NCBI GenBank assembly: GCA_003614735.1
Contig: KZ992520.1
Coordinates: forward strand, 1-36,203
Length of the DNA stretch: 36,203 nucleotides
Direction of reading: 5' to 3'
DNA from: Thamnocephalis sphaerospora
Lineage: Eukaryota > Zoopagomycota > Zoopagomycetes > Zoopagales > Sigmoideomycetaceae
The notes beneath the pieces are model-generated. The model saw only the letters and a program-made list of their open reading frames with translations, ran no database searches and was not told the origin of the DNA. The position numbers and the translations under genes were made by a program. Position 1 is the stretch's first letter, and each line of letters begins with the position of its first letter. Shown one piece after another: positions 8,077 through 17,990 of the stretch.

Positions 8077-8988
8077 TCACGCGCAGGTGCCTGCCCACTG
8101 GCCCGGGGCGATCTTGCACGTAGAGCCGGTGGCACAAGTGATGTACTGCTTATTGCATGGCTGGCCAGCCTGGGCCACGTTGACACAGGTGGTCTTGGCG
8201 GCATCTGGGTATGCGAGGCACTTTTGACCAGAGTTGGGCCAGCACTGGTAGTTGACGCCGCCAATCACACCGCAGTCGTTGCCAAGACCAACGTAGACTG
8301 GGGCAGGAGTCGGAGCTGGGCCTGGACCTGGAGCTGGGCCAGCTACACAGGTACCCGCCCATTGACCCGATGCGATATTGCAGGTAGCGCCGCTAGCGCA
8401 AGTGATGTACTGCTTGTTGCACGGCTGGCCGACCTGGGCTACGTTAACGCAGGTGGTCTTGGCGGCATCTGGATATGCAAGACACTGCTGGCCAGAGTTG
8501 GGCCAGCACTGATAGTTGACGCCGCCGATCACGCCGCAGTCGTTTCCAAGGCCGACGTAGACAGGGGCCGGGGTTGGTGCTGGGCCCGGGCCAGGGGACG
8601 GACCTGGGCCTGGAGACGGACCTGGGCCTGGAGACGGGCCAGGACCTGGAGACGGGCCAGGACCTGGAGCCGGACCGCCGGCCACGCAAGTGCCCGCCCA
8701 CTGATCCGGTGCAATCTTGCACGTAGCGCCGCTAGCGCAAGTGATATACTGCTTGTTGCACGGCTGGCCAACTTGAGCTACGTTAACGCAGGTGGTCTTT
8801 GCGGCATCTGGATATGCAAGACACTGCTGACCAGAGTTGGGCCAGCACTGGTAGTTGACGCCGCCGATCACGCCGCAGTCGTTGCCAAGACCAACGTAAA
8901 CAGGTGTCGATGTTTGCGGAAGAGCAAGCGCTGTGGTTGCAGAGGCAACCAGAGCAAGGGCAATGGCTGCAATGTTGAAGGAATGCAT
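8077..8988 (-). CDS. Secreted protein with three eight-cysteine modules and PGPGPS linkers, 303 aa
   Basis: ATG 8986-8988 to TGA 8077-8079, no intron. Residues 1-22 form a signal peptide with a hydrophobic Ala/Val/Leu core. Three nearly identical modules of about 72 residues follow, each starting YVGLGND and ending WAGTC. Every module has cysteines spaced C-x9-C-x7-C-x10-C-x9-C-x6-C-x5-C-x10-C, consistent with four disulfides. The second half (G..C.....C..G..C) recalls the colipase/Dickkopf-type cysteine pattern, but I do not assign it to a family. Modules are joined by Pro/Gly linkers; the first is a tandem PGPGPS hexapeptide array, the second shorter. It is likely a secreted or wall-associated protein. 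A paralogue lies at 11159-12307 in the same orientation, with matching leader and TATA box. Confidence 0.85.
   Translation of the reverse strand: MHSFNIAAIALALVASATTALALPQTSTPVYVGLGNDCGVIGGVNYQCWPNSGQQCLAYPDAAKTTCVNVAQVGQPCNKQYITCASGATCKIAPDQWAGTCVAGGPAPGPGPSPGPGPSPGPGPSPGPGPSPGPGPAPTPAPVYVGLGNDCGVIGGVNYQCWPNSGQQCLAYPDAAKTTCVNVAQVGQPCNKQYITCASGATCNIASGQWAGTCVAGPAPGPGPAPTPAPVYVGLGNDCGVIGGVNYQCWPNSGQKCLAYPDAAKTTCVNVAQAGQPCNKQYITCATGSTCKIAPGQWAGTCA
8577..8670 (-). repeat. 18-bp tandem repeat encoding PGPGPS linker
   Basis: Coding minisatellite between modules 1 and 2 of the secreted protein. The 18-bp unit (GGACCTGGGCCTGGAGAC and variants on the plus strand) is repeated about five times. Such linkers normally act as extended spacers and tend to vary in copy number. 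Confidence 0.8.
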
Positions 8989-11158: not shown

Positions 11159-12307
11159 TCAAGCCTGCGTCGGTGTCGGGCCGCTGATCACGCACGTGCC
11201 TGCCCAGTAGCCTGGTGCAATCTGGCAGGTGGCGTTGTCGACACAAGCAGTAAACTGCATATTGCACGGCTGACCAACCTGGGCTACATTAGCGCAAACC
11301 GACTTGCTAGCGCCCGGGAGCGTGAGGCACTTTTGGCCAGATTCGGGCCAGCACTGGTAGTCTACGCCATCAATCACACCGCACTCGTTGGCAAGACCGA
11401 CGTAGACGGGGGTCGGGCTAGGTGACGGGCTCGGATCTGGTGATGGGCTCGGATCCGGTGATGGGCTTGGATCTGGTGATGGGCTTGGATCTGGCGACGG
11501 ACTGGGATCCGGTGACGGGCTAGGGTCTGGAGATGGGCTAGGATCCGGCGTTGGGGAGGGGGATGGCGATGGGTCATCGGCCACACAGGTGCCTGCCCAG
11601 TATCCCGGTGCAATCTGGCAGGTGGCGTTACCGGCACAAGCAGTAAACTGCCTATTGCACGGCTGACCAATCTGAGCTACGTAGGCACAGACGGGCTTGC
11701 TGGCACCTGGGAGCGTAAGACACTGCTGGCCAGATTCGGGCCAGCACTGATAATTCGCGCCATCAATCATACCGCACTCATTGGCAAGACCGACGTAGAC
11801 GGGAGTCGGGCTAGGCGACGGGCTCGGATCTGGTGATGGGCTGGGATCTGGCGACGGACTGGGATCCGGTGACGGACTAGGATCCGGTGACGGGCTAGGA
11901 TCTGGTGATGGGCTCGGATCTGGTGACGGGCTAGGATCTGGTGACGGGCTAGGATCTGGTGATGGGCTCGGATCCGGTGATGGGCTAGGATCTGGTTCGT
12001 TGGCACAGACACCAGCCCACTGACCCGGGGCATATATACACACCAGACCTTCGGCACAGCGAGTGTGCTCTGGGTTGCAGACTTGACCGGCTTGTGCAAT
12101 GGTGACGCAAGTGGTCTGCGTGGCACCCGGCATCAGCGAGCAGGTCAGACCGGTGTTGGGCCAGCAGAGAAAGCGGTGGCCATCAATGTCGCCGCACTTG
12201 TCGCCACGGCCGACATAGTCTGTGGGTACTTGCTGAGGGTGAGCACGCGCCGGAGCGGTCGAAGCTACCAAAGCAAGTACAATGACTGCGATGTTGAGAG
12301 AATGCAT
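11159..12307 (-). CDS. Secreted protein with three eight-cysteine modules and DPSPSP linkers, 382 aa
   Basis: ATG 12305-12307 to TGA 11159-11161, no intron. A signal peptide (about residues 1-23) is followed by three eight-cysteine modules. Module 1 is diverged (YVGRGDKCG ... WAGVC); modules 2 and 3 are close copies (YVGLANECG ... YWAGTC). All three keep exactly the spacing C-x9-C-x7-C-x10-C-x9-C-x6-C-x5-C-x10-C of the neighbouring paralogue, including the diverged module. Linkers are tandem DPSPSP hexapeptides, about ten units after module 1 and about seven after module 2. The acidic Asp/Ser/Pro linkers replace the Gly/Pro linkers of the paralogue, so linkers evolve separately from modules. 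It is probably extracellular and O-mannosylated on Ser; molecular function is unknown. Confidence 0.85.
   Translation of the reverse strand: MHSLNIAVIVLALVASTAPARAHPQQVPTDYVGRGDKCGDIDGHRFLCWPNTGLTCSLMPGATQTTCVTIAQAGQVCNPEHTRCAEGLVCIYAPGQWAGVCANEPDPSPSPDPSPSPDPSPSPDPSPSPDPSPSPDPSPSPDPSPSPDPSPSPDPSPSPDPSPSPSPTPVYVGLANECGMIDGANYQCWPESGQQCLTLPGASKPVCAYVAQIGQPCNRQFTACAGNATCQIAPGYWAGTCVADDPSPSPSPTPDPSPSPDPSPSPDPSPSPDPSPSPDPSPSPDPSPSPDPSPSPSPTPVYVGLANECGVIDGVDYQCWPESGQKCLTLPGASKSVCANVAQVGQPCNMQFTACVDNATCQIAPGYWAGTCVISGPTPTQA
11413..11560 (-). repeat. 18-bp tandem repeat encoding DPSPSP, second linker
   Basis: Coding minisatellite with plus-strand unit GGATCTGGTGATGGGCTC and silent variants (GGATCC, GACGGG). 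About seven units separate modules 2 and 3. Most differences between units are synonymous, which points to selection on the peptide. Confidence 0.85.
11809..11995 (-). repeat. 18-bp tandem repeat encoding DPSPSP, first linker
   Basis: About ten units of the same 18-bp repeat as in the second linker, between modules 1 and 2. The shared unit sequence shows that the two linkers arose from one array, by module duplication or by exchange between arrays. Confidence 0.85.
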
Positions 12308-13763: not shown

Positions 13764-14751
13764 GGTCGGAAAAGCCTTGAAAAGCAGCTGTAAGATCCAG
13801 CGGTAACGCAACGTAGCCAAGGAGGCCTGCTCCAATGTTGCGAACAAGGATGCAGCGGGAAAGGCAAAAGCACAGCTGAATTTGCGCTAGTATTAATCGA
13901 CGAAGGTAGACTGAGCAGGAAAGCGGCGATGGCAAGCTGACCGGCTGGTGAGTGCGGTAGAAGAGGGGGTGTATCTGATGAGCTACTACGACGATCCATC
14001 ATTCGCATGCGCTCCTTTTAACAGCGATGTCGCGTAGTGGTGCCCGACTCTCAGCCGAGTGGGGCCTGCTTCTAGGGCGCGGCGCTATCGCTGCCGCCCC
14101 ACAGTCCCATCGCCCCGCCGCCCCCTTGTTGCCTACTCCAGCCAAGCGCATCTAGTCGGCCGCGGTACTTTCTTGACCTCTTTTGTTTCCATTCGTACGA
14201 CAGAACCTCCCGTATCGCGGCACGTGTGGTGCCCTGGCCGTCGGCTTTAGCGTTTAGAGACCTGTGCACTCGCTTTTAAGGCAAGCCGACGAGAATGGCA
14301 GAGCAGTGTCGCCAGAATCACGCGCACCGCCGGGTACCGGCACCACAGCCATTTCGCCGTAGGTGTGTCAAGAGACGGGCATGCAGCGAAACAAGCACGG
14401 ATGGCAGCACAGAATGATGGTGACCGTCTCTGGGTCTCCACATGCGATATGGCGCAATACGGGCCTTGTGGCGTTTGCCAGTTTCTCTCATGTGCCAAAG
14501 GGACATCAGCGTTAAAGCCCGCATCTCTGGTCCTCATCACACTTCTTTCTCGTCCACCGCCTCGTCTCGTTTAACCGCCCACTTACGCCGCTGGACGGCA
14601 GCCGAGATTTGCGTCAGGCTACCTTGACAATAAACAATGCTGCCGTGAATGGCACTTTTGCCTATGCACGGCGTGTGCGCTGCGCCAGCACACACGCCAG
14701 TGTCTTTGTCTCGATTGAATGATTGACCGATGCGTGTGCGCAGTGTCTGCG
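13764..14751. other. Intergenic region upstream of the snoRNA and RPS13
   Basis: This contains the promoter of the minus-strand secreted-protein gene and sequence upstream of the first snoRNA. It is GC-rich around 14090-14130. Open frames here (for example minus-strand ones at 14247-14540) have no protein character. Part of it may be transcribed as the precursor of the snoRNA at 14752. Confidence 0.45.
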
Positions 14752-14858
14752 GCAGACGATGATGATTTTTTCTTCGCCAGGCCGACGACCGCCCTCGTAC
14801 ACAGAGTGGCGTAGCTCGCATGGTGGCGTGGTATTTCGTATTCACACTCTGAGTCTGC
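14752..14858 (+). ncRNA. C/D-box snoRNA (copy 1), predicted 25S rRNA 2'-O-methylation guide
   Basis: The terminal stem GCAGAC (14752-14757) pairs with GTCTGC (14853-14858). Box C ATGATGA is at 14759-14765 and box D CTGA at 14849-14852. A diverged copy with the same layout lies at 16034-16150, and stem changes are compensatory between the two. The 13 nt directly before box D (14836-14848, TCGTATTCACACT) are identical in both copies and act as the guide. By my recollection this is complementary to the AGUGUGAAUAC stretch of fungal 25S rRNA domain V. By the box D+5 rule it would methylate the second U of AGUGU. It lies about 220 bp upstream of the RPS13 start, so it may sit in a 5' UTR intron of that gene or be transcribed on its own. 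Confidence 0.85.
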
Positions 14859-15079
14859 TGCCTACTACACGCACACGCGTTGTTCTGTTTTTTTTGCGAT
14901 AAAATAAATGCCCAGGGCACTAGCAAAGACGTTAGAAACTGCAAAGTAGGAGTAGCGATGAAAATTTTTGCCACTACAAAACAGAAGCACGACGCGTTTG
15001 GCATCATTTGCTCCTCCTCTTTCTTCTGGTTCCGTTGTCCTCACCGTAGCGTACAGGAAACACCTACATCTCCGTCACC

Positions 15080-15862
15080 ATGGGTCGCATGCACACTCCT
15101 GGGTAAGTCGATATGCTTTGGCGAGTGCACAGACGTCTGAATCGTCGTGTCTGTCGATCTTGTCCGCGCAGCGTGCATTCTGCCCTGTTATTTCAGCCGC
15201 TAACCGTACCCCGTCCTCACCGTATACTTGCCGTTGTTGCTGTCTGCCTTGTTCATCGCTGGCCACGGATCACTCAACTGGCGCTGTTCCTACCGTTGTC
15301 ACTATGGATCGTGATCTTTTGCTGATCTACGACTCGACAACACGATTGGAATGCTCGGGTTTCGGCTCGGCACTGCCAATTTGCGTACCGTCATGGCTAT
15401 CCGTGTTGGTGACGTGCACGGTCATGTAGCAAGGGCATTTCGTCCTCGGCTCTGCCGTACCGCCGCACCCCGCCTTCCTGGCTCAAGATCTCTGCGGAGG
15501 AGGTGTGCGAGCAGATCGTGAAGCTGGCCAAGAAGGGCGTCACCCCGTCGCAGATTGGCGTTGTCCTCCGTGACCAGCACGGTGTTGCTCAGGTCAAGAA
15601 CGTCACCGGTAACAAGATCGTTCGTATCCTCAAGGCCAACGGTCTGGCTCCGTCGCTCCCGGAGGATCTGTACCACCTCATCAAGAAGGCGGTCGCCGTC
15701 CGCAAGCATCTGGAGCGCAACCGCAAGGACAAGGACTCCAAGTTCCGCCTGATTCTGATCGAGTCGCGCATCCACCGTCTGGCCCGCTACTACAAGACCG
15801 CCGGTGTCCTGCCGCCGAACTGGAAGTACGAGTCGTCCACCGCTTCGGCCCTGGTTGCCTAA
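15080..15862 (+). CDS. RPS13: 40S ribosomal protein S13 (uS15), two exons, 151 aa
   Basis: Exons 15080-15102 and 15430-15862; together they give 151 residues, the usual eukaryotic length. The protein starts [20 protein letters not shown] and has the uS15 signature region (VRDQHG-like [12 protein letters not shown], then [20 protein letters not shown] and the [18 protein letters not shown] segment). It ends [14 protein letters not shown]. It binds 18S rRNA in the small subunit body. The intron (327 nt, GTAAGT...TAG) interrupts codon 8 and is far longer than most introns here, as is common for fungal ribosomal protein genes. The coding sequence is C/G-biased at third positions, typical of high expression. 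An AATAAA lies 65 bp after the stop. Related snoRNAs flank the gene on both sides. Confidence 0.97.
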
Positions 15863-15926
15863 GCGCCGCGTACACTTTGTGTCTGGTGACGGCTGCCCGC
15901 TGTGCCATGCAGCGTGTGTTTGCAAC

Positions 15927-15932
15927 AATAAA
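15927..15932 (+). terminator. Possible poly(A) signal of RPS13
   Basis: AATAAA 65 bp downstream of the RPS13 stop codon, before the second snoRNA. Position and sequence are suitable; fungal poly(A) signals are loose, so this is tentative. Confidence 0.45.
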
Positions 15933-16033
15933 CTCACGCGACAGTGAGGCAGCATTGGCGATTATCGCCGCACTCTCCCGGCGTGTGCTTGCGCACGCCA
16001 GTGTACTGTAAATGTATGTGCGTATGCTGCATT

Positions 16034-16150
16034 GCAAGCAGGCGGTGATGACCTTCTTCACCAAGTCGACGACCGTCCTCACACACGAGTCGACGTTGTT
16101 CGCATGGCGACAATTGGTATATCGTATTCACACTGTCTGAGCCTGTTTGC
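16034..16150 (+). ncRNA. C/D-box snoRNA (copy 2), paralogue of the 14752-14858 snoRNA
   Basis: The terminal stem GCAAGCAGGC (16034-16043) pairs with GCCTGTTTGC (16141-16150) over ten positions with one G-U wobble. Box C GTGATGA is at 16045-16051 and box D CTGA at 16137-16140. The guide TCGTATTCACACTG (16122-16135) is shared with copy 1, but here two bases (GT) separate its common part from box D, so the predicted target shifts by two nucleotides to the first U of AGUGU. The internal block CGACGACCG-Y-CCTC is also conserved between copies and could be a second guide near a degenerate box D'. It sits about 100 bp before the start of the next plus-strand gene and 170 bp after RPS13. Confidence 0.85.
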
Positions 16151-16251
16151 ATGTAGCGTACTCGCGTGGAATCATTTAGTAAACATTAAACAATCTACAC
16201 TTTACCGTCTCCACACTCTGCCACATCTTCCTTTTTGCCGTCCACAGTAGC

Positions 16252-17990
16252 ATGTCTCAGAAACGACGTCGTGCAACGCGCAGCACAGCCAGCCCTGCGG
16301 TGCGAACGCCTGCTGGCACGCCTATAGGCACACCGGTGGCGAGACCAGGGCAGGTCGTTCCTGTTGCGCAACTGGCAGCATCGCCAACAGTGCGTGGTCT
16401 GCAAGCGTCCTCGCCCTTTCCGCGCCGTTCGTCGTCGCTGCTGGTGGCACCAACGCCGGCCAAACGACGGACGCGCAATGAGGAATTGAGTCGGCTAGAG
16501 CGCCAAATGGCTGCGCTGGATGACCAGGATGGCAGCTATACGTATGCCAGCGACCAGAGCGACGACAGCGACGAACAAAGCGAAAAGTCGGCACGCTTAC
16601 CGGCACCTCTTCAGTCAGACACCTCAAAACGCGACCTAAATACAAGCGAAAATGGCGTAAAAATAGAAAAGATAGCAGGTGGTACGCAAGAGTCTCAGCC
16701 AGCTGTAGTGCAGCCTGACAAAGGGCAGGCGTCAGAGCCAGCAACGGTCAGTCGAAACGAGAATATTTTGGACACCGAAAGCGAGTATACCGGCAGCGAA
16801 GAGAGCGACTGTGGTGGAGATAGCCGAGGAGTAAAAAGTCGGCATTCTCTGGCGGTGACATCGCGTTCTGCAGGGCGGCGTAAAAAGCAGCGCACTCTGT
16901 GAGTTCTCATGTGTAGCCGGCTTTTAGCAACAGCGCTAACCATTATTGCTGCTGCTGCACTGGTAGGCCGGCTACCTCACGCTGGCCAAAACCCGAGATG
17001 GCTAGGTATGTGCTTCTGCCGCCTGACTCTGTGTGGCTTGTGGTTGACTAACTGGTATCATGCAGAGAAAGCATTTGGGCGTCACCACAAAGTGCAAACG
17101 CCAATGCTCAGGAGCGCTGGCGTCTTGCCAAAAAAAATGATAGCGTCAAGGGAAGACATGAAGAACATCGCTCTTGCCAAGTGGCGCAGGATGTACACAA
17201 TACCGGTCGACTTGCCACCAGTGAACGGCAAAAGCAGGCAATACACGAACTGGATGAGCTCACAGGAACAAACGCTTCTGGCACAGCGCACATGCCGGCT
17301 CAAGCAGTGCTGGACGTCAACGCGGAGGCAGAACGACATCAGGCACTGGTATGGCAGCTGCAGCAGATGGTTCAACATACATGGCAGAATCTAGCGCAAG
17401 CACGGCTGGAAAAGCAGATGGCAGAGGCGATGCAAAGTAACGCGATGAACGACAAAGATACCGGAGCCTGTACGTTAATACTGTGCTGTTGATGTTTCTA
17501 GCATACTTACATACGTGTTGCACCATTGCGTAGCCAATGTTGCGACAGAGCTTCCCAGCATACCAGCTATTCCACCGCCTTATGTGTCGGCACTCGCCGA
17601 TGATCTGCTGGACAGACTGCGTGACCTATTGCTCACCCTAGTGAAGCTTCGTCGTCAAGGCCCGTCTGATCGTGGTCGCAGTATGGCGTCTACATGGCGT
17701 ACCGTGTGTGCTGCCGCGCGTTTAAGCGACTGGCCCGGCGAGTGAGTGATGCAGAGAGGCGCGTAGTGCAGTGGATCAGATGGTTAACAGGCCATATTAG
17801 AGTCGTCGACCGGGTTGAGGCCCGAATGCTGGAGAATTTCGGTGAGGTGTATGCAACCGAGTTTTTGGAGACGCGAAAACGTGGAAAAGCCAGGCAAAGC
17901 CGATTGCGATGCAACGAACGCACAGATGAAAGCAACAGCGAAAGTGATAGTGACATCGTCAATGAGAGCGACACCGAGGTCGAGTTGTAA
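16252..17990 (+). CDS. Putative nuclear protein, possibly an Rrn9-like Pol I factor; five exons, 495 aa
   Basis: Model: exons 16252-16898, 16967-17005, 17066-17469, 17534-17741 and 17801-17990. All introns are 59-68 nt with GTGAGT/GTATGT/GTACGT donors, and the total is 1488 nt. The N-terminal 220 residues are disordered and basic/acidic (MSQKRRRATRSTAS..., a run with SDQSDDSDEQSEKS, then GRRKKQRTL). The middle is a Gln/Glu-rich probable coiled coil (ERQKQAIHELDEL, HQALVWQLQQMVQ). Next comes a helical region (ALADDLLDRLRDLLLTLVKL) and TWRTVCAAARLSDW followed by VVDRVEARMLENFGE. The tail is acidic (DESNSESDSDI). The W..V..AA...W...VV.R......FGE pattern reminds me of fungal Rrn9-type subunits of the Pol I upstream activation factor, but only weakly. 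A nuclear role is likely from composition. Confidence 0.7.

Follow-up and report, generated by a model that had tools for sequence, protein, structure and literature searches.

Paralogous box C/D snoRNA genes on either side of RPS13 in Thamnocephalis sphaerospora carry one guide in two registers

Two paralogous box C/D small nucleolar RNA (snoRNA) genes, separated by the ribosomal protein gene RPS13, were recognised on the + strand of the window (the whole 36,203-nt stretch of Thamnocephalis sphaerospora DNA analysed here), and they present the same guide at distances from box D that differ by two nucleotides. The explanation favoured, with somewhat better than even confidence, is that the pair are duplicates of the SNORD41/snR51 type, copy 2 having kept the ancestral register and copy 1 being both active and retargeted by two nucleotides. 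A more tentative proposal, which we consider possible if a little short of probable, is that active copy 1 would add a lineage-specific 2'-O-methyl group at the U two positions on (the +2 U), such that both U residues of a 7-nt rRNA loop would be methylated by paralogous guides.

Both genes have a 5'-proximal box C of the form RUGAUGA and a 3'-proximal box D, CUGA, and in each the terminal stem is closed with six of six pairs (Table 1), confirming the anatomy described in a first-pass annotation of this DNA. The positions of the two elements, both on the + strand, were also essentially as first described, although copy 2 is better bounded at 16038–16146 than at 16034–16150. Alignment bore out the central observation that the guide core is identical in the two copies, abutting CTGA in copy 1 and standing 2 nt off in copy 2; the copy 1 sequence that carries the shorter spacing reads ACACTCTGA. 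As for internal C' and D' boxes, only degenerate candidates could be picked out by eye (CCGA or TCGA, and ATGGYGR).

Table 1. Features of the snoRNA gene pair and the intervening RPS13 gene, in window coordinates.
Feature	Position	Strand	Basis or remark
Copy 1, box C/D snoRNA gene, shifted guide register (guide–box D spacing 2 nt shorter)	14752..14858	+	Sequence; paralogy to copy 2
Box C, copy 1 (ATGATGA)	14759..14765	+	Sequence, alignment
Possible internal hairpin A, copy 1	14790..14811	+	7 bp, one bulge; copy 2 counterpart 16074–16095
Guide, copy 1 (TCGTATTCACACT), abutting box D	14836..14848	+	D+5 on base 5 of AGUGUG (presumed yeast 25S stretch)
Box D, copy 1 (CTGA)	14849..14852	+	Sequence
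Terminal stem 3' arm, copy 1	14853..14858	+	Partner 14752–14757; 6/6 pairs
RPS13 (uS15) gene, two exons	15080..15862	+	Between both snoRNAs; Pfam S13_N and S15
GTATGT, possible 5' splice site	16014..16019	+	24 nt upstream of copy 2
Copy 2, box C/D snoRNA gene, SNORD41 register	16038..16146	+	Genome search, alignment, Rfam comparison
Box C, copy 2 (GTGATGA)	16045..16051	+	Sequence, alignment
Guide, copy 2, with 2 extra bases	16122..16136	+	Pairing with presumed yeast target over D+2 to D+13; D+5 at base 3 of AGUGUG
Box D, copy 2 (CTGA)	16137..16140	+	Sequence
Terminal stem 3' arm, copy 2	16141..16146	+	Partner 16038–16043; 6/6 pairs, one G-U

A DNA search with copy 1 of the whole T. sphaerospora assembly (a single draft assembly of 14.45 Mb in 594 contigs) returned two places only, copy 1 itself and copy 2 (77% BLAST identity). 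Under gapped alignment the copies differed by 17 substitutions in 103 gap-free columns (83% identity), 14 of the 17 being transitions, and their local alignment scored 86 against a maximum of 24 among 200 mononucleotide shuffles. Anatomy, alignment and genome search thus all support the claim of a paralogous C/D pair with a two-base register shift. None of the substitutions fell in the 23 columns formed by the box C core, guide and box D, all 17 lying in the other 80 (hypergeometric P = 0.009), and the sole change touching the box and guide part was a 2-nt indel located precisely at the junction of guide and box D. The P value rises to 0.04 with 12 substitutions counted and to 0.12 with 8, so the signal of constraint is weaker if only part of the substitutions arose on the copy 1 lineage; the intact guide and boxes favour an active copy 1 RNA, with recent decay of that copy possible.

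Elsewhere in the genome, TATTCACAC followed by CTGA 0–6 bases on was found at four places (the two copies and two others), compared with one place for a reversed control pattern; at the two others, no TGATGA was seen by eye within about 120–140 bases upstream on the matching strand. A similar GC-rich stretch, GGCGTGTGC...CACGCCAGTGT, is present 5' of both snoRNAs (14669–14703 and 15979–16004). A duplication reaching into this upstream flank was considered and rejected, the alignment score of 23 comparing with a shuffle maximum of 27, and a genome search found no second copy of the upstream flank of copy 1.

The register of copy 2 is that of SNORD41. Residues 16118–16140 align without gaps to positions 43–65 of the Rfam family (UCUcucGUAUUCGUACUGGCUGA vs UAUAUCGUAUUCACACUGUCUGA), the spacing ACUG-x-CUGA included, in a match below threshold (13.4 bits, E 3.6, as against a gathering score of 41). 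This was one of six sub-threshold matches in a lax Rfam scan of copy 2, with SNORND104 (E 1) and sR28 (E 2.2) ahead of it by E-value; since other C/D families match equally weakly, what copy 2 displays is agreement with SNORD41 in guide and register, not family membership. Copy 1 likewise gave six sub-threshold matches in a lax scan, SNORD41 not being among the matches listed. When the window was scanned with Rfam, no family reached its gathering cut-off at either copy, and a scan of 14500–16500 allowing E up to 1 returned no snoRNA. A genome search for SNORD41 returned nothing, and was uninformative in that 14 control genomes were equally silent.

Pairing was worked out on a presumed yeast 25S stretch containing AGUGUG. 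Against it, copy 2 pairs from D+2 to D+13 (12 bp) and copy 1 from D+1 to D+11 (11 bp), placing D+5 on base 3 and base 5 of AGUGUG, respectively; D+5 thus lands on the counterpart of 28S U4306 and 25S U2729 in copy 2, and not in copy 1. The earlier arithmetic, by which the two RNAs address different U residues two bases apart, was therefore right on this presumed stretch, and the rRNA match proposed in the first-pass annotation fits the class, copy 2 having the guide register of SNORD41 (at sub-threshold score) and a known site, Um4306/Um2729. The Neurospora sites Am2904, Cm2906 and Gm2773 are presumably the same as yeast Am2946, Cm2948 and Gm2815, to which they are linked through their snoRNAs. 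As numbered in PMC2780460 and PMC11542601 these series are offset by 42, and Neurospora Um2687 therefore corresponds to yeast 2729. In Table 2 of PMC11542601, human Um4306, yeast Um2729 and tobacco Um2732 are given as counterparts.

The predicted target word in LSU rRNA is AGUGUGAAUAC. The Rfam LSU consensus here reads uuUCAGUAugaau, in which UCAGUAu forms an unpaired 7-nt loop, so both U residues would share one loop. Eight eukaryotic LSU loci were retrieved, and equivalents were legible by eye in three of them (CAGTGT in L008, CAGTAC in L009 and L013), the stretch being cut off or impossible to place in the other five; the ancestral U was kept in all three, and the +2 base was U once and C twice. 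All eight contigs (L006–L013) carry eukaryotic LSU rDNA and had been deposited as bacterial metagenome-assembled genomes, a probable case of contamination, and they served here only for the conserved loop and a scan for complementarity. In the T. sphaerospora assembly itself, a search for LSU rRNA with CAGTGTGAATAC matched copy 2 and two places judged by eye not to be rRNA, a query of 600 nt of presumed yeast sequence gave no match (a search run without a positive control), and a 28-nt eukaryotic LSU word that does find LSU rDNA elsewhere gave no match at up to 3 mismatches; a scan of the viral collection returned no LSU rRNA. As the LSU of the species was not found, the rRNA assignment rests on guide homology, with the target taken from other species, and the target of copy 1 is one that we infer.

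The complementarity scan set both copies against the rRNAs of three eukaryotes, one LSU being partial. Residues 16052–16061 of copy 2 (CCTTCTTCAC) can form 10 bp, one of them G-U, with GTGGAGAAGG, which both L008 and L009 carry in their LSU; this match lies near the candidate D' box and stops 4 nt before it, and copy 1 was below threshold there. Copy 1 (14828–14838) also shows an 11-bp complementarity to LSU UGAAAUACCAC, seen in L009 as well as in the presumed yeast stretch; it was discarded as a second guide, since 18 of 60 randomised sequences did as well against L009 and no box D follows it. SNORD58/Um4197, taken up as a lead on the target site, proved wrong.

The proposed course of events begins with a single guide of SNORD41/snR51 type, the duplication of which would have produced two box C/D guide snoRNA genes. 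With the ancestral spacing of copy 2, fibrillarin would 2'-O-methylate the conserved U of CAGU (yeast 25S U2729, human 28S U4306). In copy 1 a deletion would have brought the guide two nucleotides closer to box D without abolishing its pairing with the rRNA stretch; its D+5 position would then face the U two positions downstream (the equivalent of yeast U2731) and most likely direct the methylation of that residue, which belongs to the same 7-nt hairpin loop. Because copy 1 is two bases shorter than the widely shared register seen in copy 2, it is probably the derived copy, formed through a 2-nt deletion. We infer that the genes are expressed, that each directs methylation, that the indel is a loss from copy 1, and that copy 1 is active as opposed to redundant. 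The first-pass annotation had offered either a guide duplication that gained a target or the drift of a redundant copy; the duplication and the register shift stand, and a direction, with copy 1 probably derived, can now be added to them.

A substantial possibility, albeit one that we doubt, is that copy 1 is a redundant, decaying duplicate, out of register and either silent or engaged in unproductive binding of rRNA, and that copy 2 does the work. Copy 2 would by itself suffice for the conserved site, some LSU rRNAs have a base other than U at +2 (L009 and L013 again), and methylation at the +2 U is absent from Table 2 of PMC11542601, a table whose human and yeast sites are confined to those shared with plants; conservation of the guide, moreover, loses significance if about half of the substitutions occurred in copy 1 (the count of 8 above). 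Against such decay stands the retention in copy 1 of both boxes, of the entire guide and of a terminal stem with every base paired, despite differences between the copies in 17 of 103 columns. The U14 gene of T. sphaerospora was found by genome search, showing that other C/D RNA is detectable in this assembly, and this was counted in favour of the preferred explanation, that of an active, retargeted copy 1.

The shorter spacing could also be a sequencing or assembly error, both copies then guiding methylation of one and the same U. The draft state of the assembly and the position of the indel between short repeats (CACAC and CTGTCT) are compatible with this, but the indel lies outside any homopolymer and copy 1 retains an intact box D and terminal stem next to it, making an error quite improbable. 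It is exceedingly improbable that the elements are chance occurrences, or some other conserved non-coding repeat, rather than snoRNA genes: although neither reached an Rfam gathering cut-off and their single-strand folding energies were ordinary (z −0.73 and −1.04), in each of them a guide to a known methylation site occurs together with box C, box D and a terminal stem, and C/D RNAs are not expected to fold strongly. Nor is there much probability, on our estimate, that copy 1 is shifted and still methylates the ancestral U under a relaxed D+5 rule; its 11 bp of pairing with the target stretch would permit this, but D+5 is the norm as stated in PMC2780460.

Compensatory changes in the stems had also been noted in the first-pass annotation, and these did not exceed chance. 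The terminal stem has one two-sided change between the copies (A-U to G-C), with pairing kept in both, and two internal hairpins that can be drawn in both copies have one kept two-sided change each. Among the 19 pairs tabled for the terminal stem and both hairpins, 18 are retained in both copies (pair 14813–14828 fails in copy 1), three of the 18 having changed on both sides and two on one side. In simulations that moved the substitutions to random positions and then looked post hoc for stems of at least 4 bp common to both copies, 654 of 3000 runs reached the observed three compensated pairs, one of which sits, in this test, in a stem other than the tabled helices. With two sequences the compensatory evidence is therefore weak, and compensatory base changes were rejected as proof of function.

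Spliced across an intron placed by hand from the sequence (15103–15429), RPS13 encodes a protein with 100% identity over 151 aa to RPS13 of T. sphaerospora, the next-best match being Syncephalis (94%), from which the host is an early-diverging fungus. T. sphaerospora is a mycoparasite. Copy 1 lies 5' of RPS13, its end about 220 nt from the start codon, and copy 2 lies 3', beginning about 175 nt after the stop codon. The placing of the pair around a ribosomal protein gene, instead of inside it, had been thought unusual, a view that now looks less compelling: the arrangement is not clearly special, and copy 2 may sit within a 5'UTR intron of the downstream gene. Besides the possible splice donor upstream of copy 2 (Table 1), CAG and TAG directly precede the ATG of the next ORF downstream; GTATGT occurs 17 times on the + strand of the 36-kb window, so the intron evidence for copy 2 is mild. 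That ORF (16252–16902) had no Pfam domain, and no homologue at E 0.001. An intronic position in 5'UTRs for both copies was rejected, being possible for copy 2 only, since none of six donor words occurred within 450 nt upstream of copy 1. In the U14 gene (L019; G000 C212:4079–4171; 68.7 bits, above the Rfam cut-off), GTAAGT stands 43 nt ahead of box C, which suggests that the gene is intronic.

Two other observations were made in the window. A run of eight T residues lies at 14888–14895, about 30 nt 3' of copy 1, with GCGATAAAATAAATG after it; it may belong to the RPS13 promoter or act as a stop of the RNA polymerase III type. On the − strand, two similar ORFs (8077–8988 and 11159–12307) encode secreted-looking cysteine-rich repeat proteins, built of YVGLGNDCG...CWPNSGQQC... 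units with linkers PGPSPGPG or SPDPSP.

If the preferred explanation is true, the pair would offer a clean, small case in which an rRNA methylation site is gained by duplication and then a two-base deletion before box D. The mark would move by two while the pairing stays, a minimal step from guide duplication to new target. It would also place a SNORD41-like guide on the box D side in an early-diverging fungus, the Neurospora counterpart being given as D'-side in PMC2780460. The class, the target region and the route from duplication to new sites are already known, so the advance would be incremental. In the PMC open-licence literature, no paper was found for Thamnocephalis together with snoRNA, and the guide words searched as letters returned none that by its title was about snoRNAs.

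Among known guides, SNORD41/U41 of animals (Rfam RF00588) has its guide 5' of box D and addresses the same target stretch, its presumed target being 28S Um4306; copy 2 shares its register and its spacing to CUGA, whereas copy 1 is two bases out, and the family spans 70 positions compared with the 107–109 nt found here. Nc CD6 of Neurospora crassa, listed in PMC2780460 with target 26S-Um2687, location 'Exon' and homologues snR51 and human U41, has the rRNA site predicted for copy 2, but through a D'-side guide in place of the box D-side guide seen here. In other fungi, snR51 is described as part of an snR41-snR70-snR51 cluster (PMC3596301), whereas here two copies stand beside RPS13. According to PMC2653536, new guiding functions may arise, or guiding functions be destroyed, when chicken snoRNA paralogues acquire substitutions and indels, the examples being H/ACA RNAs. 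Methylations two bases apart have a precedent in Nc CD27, a single RNA given in PMC2780460 for 26S-Am2904 and Cm2906, which in yeast belong to snR71 and snR69. Overlapping guides are common to that case and this one, but Nc CD27 serves both sites with one RNA and yeast with two named snoRNAs, while the genes described here are paralogues that differ by an indel before box D. Duplication of plant snoRNA genes reportedly gives rise to isoforms with new rRNA sites, as the title of Barneche et al. 2001 has it. For plants and Chlamydomonas, PMC7671301 describes duplications leading to snoRNA isoforms with new methylation sites. There, as proposed here, gene duplication leads to new rRNA targets; the plant and green-algal isoforms belong to large multigene families, whereas in T. 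sphaerospora the same outcome would have been reached by a single pair of genes in a fungus.
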